A stretch of 64,000 bases of DNA. Source: Burkholderiaceae bacterium (GTDB lineage Bacteria; Pseudomonadota; Gammaproteobacteria; Burkholderiales; Burkholderiaceae_E). The number at the start of each line of letters is the position of its first letter. Position 1 is the stretch's first letter. Shown here one piece after another: positions 51,829-55,363 of the stretch. The notes beneath the pieces are model-generated. The model had not been told where the DNA came from, searched no databases, and saw nothing but the letters and a program-made list of their open reading frames with translations. Both the position numbers and the translations under genes were made by a program. The stretch is taken from positions 1 through 64,000 of the forward strand of contig JAMLIR010000004.1 in NCBI GenBank assembly GCA_023954045.1, written 5' to 3'.

Positions 51829-53790
51829 ATGGGCAAGATCATCGGCATCGACCTGGGCACGACGAACTCGTGCGTCGCCATCATGGAGGGCGGCCAGCCC
51901 AAGGTGATCGAGAACTCCGAGGGCGCGCGCACGACGCCGTCGATCGTCGCCTACATGGACGACGGCGAGATCCTGGTCGGCGCACCGGCCAAGCGGCAGG
52001 CGGTCACCAACCCGAAGAACACGCTGTACGCGGTGAAGCGGCTGATCGGGCGCAAGTTCGAGGAGAAGGAGGTCCAGAAGGACATCCACCTGATGCCCTA
52101 CGGGATCGTCAAGGCCGACAACGGCGACGCCTGGGTCGAGGTCCGCGGCAAGAAGCTCGCGCCGCCGCAGGTGTCGGCCGAAGTGCTGCGCAAGATGAAG
52201 AAGACCGCCGAGGACTACCTCGGCGAGGAAGTGACCGAGGCCGTCATCACCGTGCCGGCCTACTTCAACGACAGCCAGCGCCAGGCGACCAAGGACGCGG
52301 GCCGCATCGCGGGCCTGGAGGTCAAGCGGATCATCAACGAGCCGACCGCGGCCGCGCTCGCGTTCGGCCTGGACAAGGGCGGCGGCAAGGACCGCAAGGT
52401 CGCGGTCTACGACCTGGGCGGCGGCACCTTCGACATCTCGATCATCGAGATGGCCGACGTCGACGGCGAGAAGCAGTTCGAGGTGCTGTCGACCAACGGC
52501 GACACGTTCCTCGGCGGCGAGGACTTCGACCAGCGGATCATCGACTACGTGATCGGCGAGTTCAGGAAGGAGCAGGGCGTCGACCTCTCGAAGGACGTGC
52601 TCGCGCTGCAGCGGCTGAAGGAAACCGCCGAGAAGGCGAAGATCGAGCTGTCGTCCTCCCAGCAGACCGAGTTCAACCTGCCCTACATCACGGCCGACGC
52701 ATCGGGTCCGAAGCACCTGAACATGAAGATCACGCGCGCGAAGCTCGAGGCGCTGGTCGAGGAGCTGGTCGAGCGCACGATCGAGCCGTGCCGGATCGCG
52801 CTGAAGGACGCGGGCCTGAAGGCGAGCGACATCGACGACGTGATCCTGGTGGGCGGCATGACGCGGATGCCCAAGGTCCAGGAGAAGGTCAAGGAGTTCT
52901 TCGGCAAGGAGCCGCGCAAGGACGTCAACCCCGACGAGGCGGTGGCGGTGGGCGCGGCGATCCAGGGCGCGGTGCTGTCGGGCGACCGCAAGGACGTGCT
53001 GCTGCTCGACGTCACGCCGCTGTCGCTGGGCATCGAGACGCTGGGCGGCGTCATGACCAAGATGATCCAGAAGAACACGACGATCCCGACCAAGTTCTCG
53101 CAGACCTTCTCCACCGCCGACGACAACCAGCCGGCGGTCACGATCAAGGTGTTCCAGGGCGAGCGCGAGGTCGCGGTCGGCAACAAGCTGCTCGGCGAGT
53201 TCAACCTCGAGGGCATTCCGCCGGCGCCGCGCGGCACGCCGCAGATCGAGGTCACTTTCGACATCGACGCGAACGGCATCCTGCACGTGTCGGCGAAGGA
53301 CAAGGCGACCGGCAAGGAGAACAAGATCACGATCAAGGCGAACTCGGGGCTCTCCGAGGCCGAGATCCAGAAGATGGTCAAGGACGCCGAGACGAACGCG
53401 GCCGAGGATCACAAGCGGGTCGAGCTGGCGCAGGCGCGCAACCACGCCGACGCGCTGGTGCACTCGGTGAAGAAGTCGCTCGCCGAGTACGGCGACAAGA
53501 TCGAAGCCGACGAGAAATCGAAGATCGAGGACGCGCTGAAGGCGGCCGAGGAGTCGCTGAAGTCCGACGACAAGGACGAGATCGAGGCGAAGACCAACGC
53601 GCTGATGACCGCGTCGCAGAAGCTCGGCGAGATGATGTACGCGAAGGCGCAGGCCGAGGGCGGCGCGCAGGCGGCGGCAGGCGCGGGCGCCGAGGGCCAC
53701 GCGGGCCCCGAGGGTGCCGCGGAAGCCAGGCGCCCGAAGGAGGACGACGTGGTCGACGCCGACTTCAAGGAAGTGAAACGCGACGCTTGA
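51829..53790 (+). CDS. dnaK: Molecular chaperone DnaK (Hsp70)
   Basis: A 653-residue Hsp70. The ATPase domain starts [20 protein letters not shown] and contains [16 protein letters not shown] and [17 protein letters not shown]. The linker is [19 protein letters not shown], then the substrate domain with [15 protein letters not shown] helical lid and an Ala/Gly-rich tail end [12 protein letters not shown] gaaggaac site lies before the ATG at 51829. The downstream dnaJ is displaced by an inserted cassette. Confidence 0.96.
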
Positions 53791-53797
53791 GGGACGA

Positions 53798-54228
53798 GAA
53801 GGGAGAAGGGGGAAGGGACCGGGCAAGAATGGGACGGCGTGCGACGCAAGCACCGGGACCTGCTCGTCTGGCAGCGCGCGATCGTGCCGGTCGAGATGGT
53901 GTACGGTGCGACCGACGCGTTCCCGCCGTCCGAGAGGTACGGGCTCAGTGGCCAGCTTCGCCGCGCCGCCGTCTCGGTGCCTGCGAACATCGCGGAGGGG
54001 TATGCCAGGAGCGGAACTCGCGAGCTCCTGCACTACCTGAGCATATCCGCCGGGTCGCTGTCTGAACTCGATACGCTGATCGAGCTCGGACAGCGACTCG
54101 GCTATTTCGATCAGACAGAGGAGTTGCGGAAGACACTGGACGACGTGAGCGGAATGCTGATGGGTCTGCAGGCGTCGGTGCGTCGGCGCGCTGGCTCCTG
54201 ACCCTTCTCCCTTCCCCCTTCTCCCTTC
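53798..54228. repeat. 21-bp inverted repeat bounding the four-helix-bundle gene
   Basis: A purine-only arm at 53798-53818, built of gaaggga/agggg blocks, has its exact reverse complement (pyrimidine-only) at 54208-54228. All 21 positions match. The arms enclose 389 bases containing a single small gene and sit 7 bases after the dnaK stop and 10 bases before the dnaJ start. In a dnaK-dnaJ transcript they would pair into a long stem, much like rRNA intervening sequences removed by RNase III. No target-site duplication could be recognised. Confidence 0.85.
53839..54201 (+). CDS. Four-helix-bundle protein, S23/rRNA intervening-sequence family
   Basis: A 120-residue all-helical protein. It has the family hallmarks [19 protein letters not shown] near the N-terminus, then [20 protein letters not shown] and [20 protein letters not shown], and ends with a helix of the [15 protein letters not shown] kind. 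Relatives were first seen in intervening sequences of 23S rRNA genes, and a cousin (Avd) assists diversity-generating retroelements. No reverse transcriptase or template repeat is here. The start is a GTG, 20 bases inside a purine-rich inverted repeat arm that may supply its ribosome site. It lies between dnaK and dnaJ, where no gene is normally found. Its biochemical role is unknown. Confidence 0.85.
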
Positions 54229-54238
54229 CCTCGAACAA

Positions 54239-55363
54239 ATGGCAAAGCGTGACTACTACGAAGTCCTCGGCGTCGCGAAGAACTCGACCGACGACGACCT
54301 GAAGAAGGCCTATCGCAGGCTCGCGATGAAGTACCACCCGGACCGCAATCCGGGCAACAAGGACGCCGAGGAGAAGTTCAAGGAGGTCAAGGAAGCCTAC
54401 GAGATGCTGACCGACCCGGCCAAGCGCGAGGCCTACGACCGCTTCGGCCACGCCGGCGTCGATCCGAACGCCGGCTTTCCGGGCGGGGCGGGCGGCCAGG
54501 GCTTCGGCGGCTTCGCCGACGTGTTCGGCGACATCTTCGGCGACATCTTCGGCGGCCAGCGCGCCGGCGGCGGGCGAAGCAACGTCTATCGCGGCGCCGA
54601 CCTGCGCTACGCGATGGAGATCACGCTCGAGCAGGCGGCCAACGGCTACACGTCCGAGATCCGCGTTCCCAGCTGGGACACCTGCGGCACCTGCAGCGGC
54701 ACCGGCGCGAAGCCGGGCACCAAGCCGAAGGTCTGCCACACCTGCGGCGGTCAGGGCGCGGTGCGCGTCCAGCAGGGGTTCTTCTCGATCCAGCAGACCT
54801 GCCCGACCTGCCGCGGCAGCGGCAAGGTGATCCCCGATCCGTGCACCGCCTGCGAAGGCGTCGGCCGCGTGAAGAAGAACAAGACGCTCGAGGTCAAGAT
54901 CCCGGCCGGCATCGACGACGGGATGCGGATCCGCTCGGCCGGCAACGGCGAGCCGGGGATCAACGGCGGGCCGCCGGGCGACCTCTACGTCGAGATCCAC
55001 GTGAAGGAGCACCCGGTGTTCCAGCGCGACGGCGACGACCTGCATTGCGAGGTGCCGATCGGCATCACGACGGCGGCGCTCGGCGGCACGGTGCAGATCC
55101 CGACGCTGGCGGGGCGCGCCGAGATCGAGCTGCCCGAGGGCACCCAGCCGGGCAAGCAGTTCCGGCTGCGCGGCAAGGGGATCAAGGGGATCCGCTCGAG
55201 CTATCCCGGCGACCTCTACGCGCACGTGGTCGTCGAGACGCCGGTGAGGTTGACCGACAAGCAGAAGCAGCTGCTGCGCGAGCTCGAGGCGTCGCTGAAG
55301 GACCCGAAGCACAGCCCGCAGACCAAGGGCTGGATGGACCGCGTGAAGGACTTCTTCCAGTGA
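54239..55363 (+). CDS. dnaJ: Chaperone DnaJ (Hsp40)
   Basis: A 374-residue DnaK co-chaperone. The J domain (about 1-70) contains the HPD tripeptide in [18 protein letters not shown] Gly/Phe-rich region (about 75-110) follows, then four zinc-binding CxxCxGxG motifs ([32 protein letters not shown]) and the C-terminal client domains. The 30 bases before its ATG are C/T-rich and contain no Shine-Dalgarno sequence, because the inverted-repeat arm of the inserted cassette occupies that place. Confidence 0.95.

Follow-up and report, generated by a model that had tools for sequence, protein, structure and literature searches.

The closest described counterparts of the locus analysed here are the intervening sequences (IVSs) of rRNA genes, in which a PF05635 (S23p) gene lies in a loop and complementary ends form a stem around the open reading frame (ORF). 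In Coxiella the ORF of the IVS is preceded by three GACAGAT heptamers, and RNase III excises the insert (PMC4990558); PF05635 genes are also described from CPR rRNA insertions (PMC11270868), and a figure legend dealing with CRISPR neighbours uses the family name as a label (PMC10910872). A second group of counterparts consists of short tandem repeats. The G-rich heptameric repeats of Xanthomonas (GGGAATC) and Nostoc (GGGGAYT) have a unit length of 7, are mostly intergenic, occur as convergent pairs (70 in one Xanthomonas genome and 75 in another) and were reported as generally not associated with mobile elements; the main text of that study makes no mention of S23, 23S or four helix (PMC4692102). 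The TAACTGA repeats of Beggiatoaceae and cyanobacteria have been reported as direct repeats that may play a part in translation (PMC4679880). In the accessible open-access literature, a scope outside which most subscription papers and all preprints fall, we found nothing linking PF05635 to heptad arrays in general, and novelty is to that extent provisional.

We analysed 64,000 nucleotides from a Burkholderiaceae bacterium (GCA_023954045.1, contig JAMLIR010000004.1, positions 1 to 64,000; hereafter the window) containing an insert between dnaK and dnaJ. We think it likely that the insert belongs, as a single copy, to a widespread class of small mobile elements that also takes in the rRNA IVSs and folds out of the RNA with no splicing. 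Below, G, L and C numbers denote genomes, loci and contigs.

The dnaK–dnaJ cassette and the arms of the PF05635 family

The dnaK stop codon (53788–53790) and the dnaJ ATG (54239) are separated by 448 nt. The original prediction placed in this gap an S23/IVS-type gene and a perfect 21-bp inverted repeat, and both were confirmed (Table 1). Profile searches matched the gene to PF05635 (23S_rRNA_IVP; E = 9.3e-31) and TIGR02436 (E = 1.6e-29), and the arms, 21 nt each and spaced 389 nt apart, are 100% complementary. The best solved relative of the window protein, by phmmer, was PDB 2gsc, XCC0516 of Xanthomonas (E = 1.3e-28). The arms scored 21, and none of 435 displaced controls reached 16 with the same scoring. 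Predicted RNA folding of the region gave −257.8 kcal/mol versus a mean of −210.0 in 100 shuffles (z = −6.6), with 53800–53818 paired in register with 54208–54226 in the minimum-energy structure (19 of the 21 arm positions). The sole gene between the arms is the PF05635 gene; the transposase that an insertion sequence would encode is absent. The window's genome yielded no second PF05635 match.

Table 1. Positions of the cassette and its host genes in the window
Feature	Position	Strand	Remarks
dnaK, upstream host gene	51829..53790	+	Stop codon ends 7 nt ahead of left arm
Left arm, heptads GAAGGGA GAAGGGG GAAGGGA	53798..53818	+	Perfect inverted repeat, period 7; G-rich strand inward
IVS-type four-helix-bundle gene, PF05635 / TIGR02436, 120 aa	53839..54201	+	GTG start as listed; profile matches
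Right arm, reverse complement of left	54208..54228	+	10 nt from arm end to dnaJ start codon
dnaJ, downstream host gene	54239..55363	+	

Like the rRNA IVSs, the insert holds its gene between complementary ends, but it lies between two genes of an mRNA operon, outside any rRNA gene. Like the bacterial heptameric repeats, its arms are tandem 7-nt units in intergenic DNA: we rejected the idea of a unique 21-bp terminal sequence, each arm being three units of the tandem heptad GAAGGGR.

A contig scan returned at least 520 candidates encoding relatives, and the best 80, drawn from multiple phyla, were scored for arms. We counted an inverted match when its score was at least 14 within 250 nt of the PF05635 match, with stretches displaced inside the same loci as controls. 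Matched inverted arms were present at 60 of the 80 loci versus 2 of 435 displaced controls (Fisher p = 4e-58), with 20 loci below threshold in these wider flanks; a direct-orientation match was present at five of 80. G exceeded C on the sense strand of the upstream arm in 57 of the 60 armed loci, with the opposite in three. Tandem periodicity with a score of at least 14 was detected upstream in 43/80 (30 with period 7, eight with period 8) and downstream in 40/80 (28 with period 7), as against 18 of 585 control stretches. At L086 (Moorena) the upstream arm is C-rich, not G-rich; the C-rich stretch may belong to an adjacent array, or the rule of inward G-richness may truly fail here.

The set was then enlarged to 154 rows: besides the 80 loci it took in five multi-copy genomes (40 copies), 30 loci from Burkholderiales, and the window together with three orthologues. 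Four duplicate rows were dropped by identical protein core and three more elements proved to be present twice (L043/L225, L048/L216, L080/L188), leaving 147, among which related species sharing a site (e.g., L084, L092) were retained. Matched arms were found in 97 and a measurable unit in 86, with a length of 7 nt in 71, 8 nt in 11, 10 nt in two, and 6 and 9 nt in one each; the median arm had 4.0 units. Scoring in narrower flanks found arms at 52 of the 80 loci (28 misses) and 17 of the 30 Burkholderiales loci (13 misses) and, among the copies examined per genome, in 10/10 for G111, 10/10 for G109, 4/4 for G089 and 5/9 for G092. None of seven copies (L208–L214) from a Bacteroidetes genome with 25 matches (G119) reached the threshold; this branch may lack arms, or its arms may be of a different kind. 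At L232, on a Riemerella plasmid, an iron-sulfur assembly gene and sufB flank a PF05635-like gene that shows no clear heptad arms by eye. Arms were present in most but not all samples and are therefore frequent, not universal.

The repeat unit is nearly private to each copy. Ten copies examined from an Anaerolineales genome (G111; 23 copies) had ten different units, two of them differing by one mismatch, and across G089, G092, G109 and G111 just two of 54 same-genome pairs of 7-nt units agreed within one mismatch. Such agreement varied with protein identity: 11/15 pairs at ≥70%, 14/44 at 60%–70%, 17/205 at 50%–60%, 49/1194 at 40%–50% and 29/1027 below 40%. A Mantel test of protein versus heptad similarity, run before two duplicates were removed, gave a weak correlation (r = −0.20; 2/2000 permutations). 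Agreement of this kind is also expected from physical linkage alone and so does not prove recognition. The predicted stand-alone, IVS-type cassette with matched ends holds up; a single fixed G/A-rich end does not, the ends being short tandem-repeat arrays whose unit varies by element.

Several units coincide with published heptamers. GGGAATC is the arm unit of L042 and GGGGATT that of L251, matches that may be fortuitous, and the reverse complement of TAACTGA, TCAGTTA, is the arm unit of L192. The Coxiella heptamer GACAGAT was absent among the arm units of this set. Two Burkholderiales genomes (G266, G162) carry two PF05635 copies each inside 23S rRNA genes. One copy from each, aligned to E. 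coli 23S, replaces the helix tip near 1163–1186, a helix we take to be H45, and has CAGG-type heptad arms. The G266 23S gene (L275) also holds a gene-less hairpin with CAGG-type heptads at E. coli 540–553, presumably H25. A BLAST comparison of the 80 best loci with E. coli 23S at E = 1e-8 returned no matches.

Gene-less copies and dispersed arrays

In REP/RAYT and MITE systems, gene-less hairpin copies stand beside a single gene-bearing copy. The PF05635 element differs from both in that it encodes no transposase and in that its repeat unit is a tandem heptad. A Mesorhizobium genome with one PF05635 gene (G116) has perfect GTGAATG arms at nuoC–nuoD and the same heptads at five further places: three clear gene-less inverted pairs (L235, L236, L243), a pair with a degenerate left arm (L241) and a short one-sided array (L244). 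The pairs appear to lie 3′ of stop codons. A genus search around G116 returned that genome alone. Another genome with one PF05635 gene (G333) gave 90 overlapping pattern hits for GTGAGGT arrays and none for the reversed control; the 20 array loci examined comprise eight inverted pairs at threshold, most around a short core, and 12 one-direction arrays. Five gene-less copies in this genome (L363, L366, L368, L370, L372) have a second, inner inverted repeat, CCCCATCCCC...CTTGAAGGGG, forming a nested hairpin core.

An HUH enzyme (IS200/IS605 or REP/RAYT-like) could transpose single-stranded DNA hairpins of this kind in trans, with the four-helix protein as accessory or passenger. Hairpin ends, gene-less relatives and insertion into gaps are all reminiscent of REP/RAYT, and we consider this reading unlikely, with a real chance nonetheless of being correct.

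Dispersed arrays of the window's own unit were mapped as well. The window's genome has three other places with GAAGGGA arrays, which by reading lie just 3′ of an acetolactate-synthase-like ORF (C34:187155–187189), just 5′ of a start codon (C8:38813–38847) and just 3′ of a stop codon (C15:20383–20417). At the first, outside the window, a separate long palindrome lies between the left-type GAAGGGA array and an ilvC-like gene (L006:1494–1735; gene names by reading). GAAGGGR arrays were found in 16 of 74 family genomes, namely 15 of the 18 in the window's genus and one of the 56 others (G032), which is also the only genome among those 56 found with a dnaK–dnaJ element. Reversing GAAGGGG gives a rotation of the same heptad, so the reversed-pattern control also matches most array genomes; in the 55 remaining genomes outside the genus it has no matches. 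Within the genus, array counts did not differ significantly between element carriers and non-carriers (p = 0.17), a result that counts against the mobile-element reading but is compatible with arrays left behind by a copy since lost.

Such arrays might also be hitch-hiking minisatellites, born by replication slippage at any tolerant site and copied between arms by hairpin-templated repair with the gene uninvolved. The existence of gene-less arrays, the variation in unit number and the long pure arrays in G333 agree with this. The specificity of matched inverted arrays for PF05635 flanks (60/80 vs. 2/435) speaks against it, as does the distribution of GTGAGGT arrays: they occur in 18 of 399 Burkholderiales genomes, and PF05635 is found in 12 of these 18 compared with 72 of the 381 others (p = 2e-5). 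In the remaining six no PF05635 hit was found, and two array-rich genomes are exceptions of another sort, the gene of G293 having GAAGGG arms and that listed for G209 (L260) having only weak arms of another kind and no GTGAGG. We judge the minisatellite explanation improbable.

Occupied, empty and shortened sites

The mobile-element reading gains further ground from where copies lie. We surveyed the neighbours of 94 elements with usable flanks (two duplicates still among them), calling the longest ORF on each side, a procedure that is error-prone in GC-rich DNA. The upstream neighbour was on the same strand in 81/92; the median distance between its stop codon and the start of the arm was 4 nt, with 61 of the 81 within 25 nt. 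The downstream neighbour was in sense orientation in 69/89, at a median of 11 nt to the first possible start and within 25 nt in 44 of the 69. Three downstream neighbours were miscalled as antisense: NCBIfam identified a sense acyltransferase at L258 and DnaJ at L270, and the dnaJ start is visible at L100. NCBIfam-checked junctions include nuoC–nuoD, ruvA–ruvB, pyruvate dehydrogenase (PDH) E1 beta/dihydrolipoamide acyltransferase, glyA–nrdR, gltB–gltD, thyA/DHFR and a second dnaK–dnaJ, with some of the matches below the curated cut-off and several from cut ORFs. At an nrdA–nrdB junction, public annotation shows the PF05635 gene antiparallel to the operon. In a type I-D CRISPR operon on plasmid pANA02 of Anabaena sp. 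90 (L455), cas6 and cas4 are separated by a PF05635 gene that is flanked by GGTGACA-like arrays, a position that may account for the reported CRISPR association of the family; PF05635 genes adjoining other systems, such as this cas operon, may be passengers. Equal-scoring PF05635 genes on two Calothrix plasmids share their annotated neighbours and hence reveal no element ends, and none of the phage records matched.

A DnaJ match was obtained in 69 family genomes; 50 of their dnaK–dnaJ loci were examined, and 48 yielded a gap. An open element was found in the window's genome (G000), in G073 and G067 of the same genus, and in G032 of another genus. Shortened remnants were found in five genomes (G061, G058, G062, G070, G064), and the element was not seen at the remaining loci surveyed. 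The gap is 2 bp in G072, G060, G063 and G068 and 7 bp in G069. In G066, the sister of the window's genome in the DnaJ tree (support 99/91), it is filled by an unrelated insert. Unrelated G+C-rich inserts at this junction measure 182 nt in G066, 168 nt in G057 and 94 nt in G059 (L108, L123, L156); those of G066 and G057 have a partly palindromic stretch in common, perhaps another repeat family at the same junction.

Empty sites were also found at other operons. Among eight genomes of one genus, ruvA–ruvB is occupied in G321 and G350 and empty in G289 and G461, with 3 nt from stop to start; G252 has a short gap, the gap of G379 is partly N, and G407 and G435 have a different insert of 1.1–1.2 kb. 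The nrdA–nrdB junction is occupied in Nostoc edaphicum and empty in Calothrix NIES-4105, with flanks ∼85% identical. No clear target-site duplication was visible at empty sites compared at 81%–88% identity. A mobile origin had been expected to leave empty sites and recurring arms around homologues at unrelated loci, and both were found; conversely, it would have been in doubt had all relatives shared the dnaK–dnaJ position with arms confined to it, and here relatives do share that position, yet many other family members are armed.

Two heptad types occur at dnaK–dnaJ: GAAGGG in the window's genus, G032 and G293, and GTGAGG in G333, G323, G352 and G409. The DnaJ N-termini of G293 and G352 are 96% identical and their element proteins just 52%, which implies that the dnaK–dnaJ copies were gained or replaced separately. 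The PF05635 protein itself is under purifying selection. Between the window protein and that of G073, dN was 0.147 and dS 1.21 (dN/dS ∼0.12), and over eight pairs with measurable divergence dN/dS ranged from about 0.06 to 0.33 (e.g., G352/G409, 0.06; G321/G350, 0.08; G000/G032, 0.33), with G366/G476 too close to tell.

Purifying selection, the strong stem and the sharing of one junction by several species of the genus are what would be seen if gene and stem were an immobile module of the dnaK–dnaJ operon, kept by the host as an attenuator or RNase III processing site. Set against such a host regulator are the shortening or absence of the element in most genus members examined, the homologues of the same anatomy in unrelated operons and rRNA, and the two heptad types at dnaK–dnaJ in species with nearly identical DnaJ N-termini, and we hold it to be highly unlikely.

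Proposed mechanism and significance

A full copy of the mobile element has a PF05635 gene between two complementary arrays, in inverted orientation, of a short tandem repeat that is nearly private to the copy and mostly has a 7-nt unit. For such a copy we propose the following course. In the transcript the two arms would base-pair, and the insert would be pushed out as a hairpin. Because the stem would fold the insert out of the RNA, rRNA hairpin tips and stop-to-start gaps could tolerate it without splicing. The stem would be a substrate for RNase III, whose cleavage of one rRNA IVS has been published. With less assurance, we suggest that the protein, whose solved Xanthomonas relative is a pentamer, may recognise its own heptads and may help host enzymes to copy or insert the element, gene-less copies included.

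One benefit proposed for the stem, that the upstream gene's ribosome-binding site is held close to the following start codon, failed its test: the strict motif was found in 18 of 71 cases versus 18.9 in shuffles, and a looser motif, counted without a shuffle control, in 28 of 71. A retro-element, in which the protein would partner a reverse transcriptase in the manner of Avd, its relative from diversity-generating retroelements, is very improbable: PF05635 resembles Avd (PMC10053308) and the sites are mostly sense-strand and beside stop codons, but RVT_1 was found in 11 of 24 genomes tested and in none of the window's genome (0 matches in a 50-contig draft), G333, G109 (30 copies), G092 (17) or G089 (8), drafts in which genes may be missed. 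A host reverse transcriptase was rejected as a requirement, RVT_1 being absent from the window's genome and G333.

Returning to the fold-out element, the operon form extends the IVS kind, and the class-wide picture is a larger claim, made provisionally. We advance only tentatively, as something that could prove right or wrong, that the pentamer reads about one heptad unit per subunit, an idea suggested by the median of 4.0 units per arm, and that a bacteria-wide fold-out class, in copies with a gene, copies without one and decayed arms, explains the rRNA IVSs with and without ORFs together with much of the unexplained heptamer repeat content of bacterial genomes.

This reading joins two puzzles, the intervening sequences of rRNA genes and the unexplained heptamer repeats of bacteria. 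If it is true, the heptamer repeats of Xanthomonas, cyanobacteria and Beggiatoa would have a candidate partner protein, and matched protein–repeat pairs would be available for recognition tests. The rRNA IVSs would belong to a larger element family that also occupies operon junctions, and there would be a reason for the existence of IVSs that lack an ORF.
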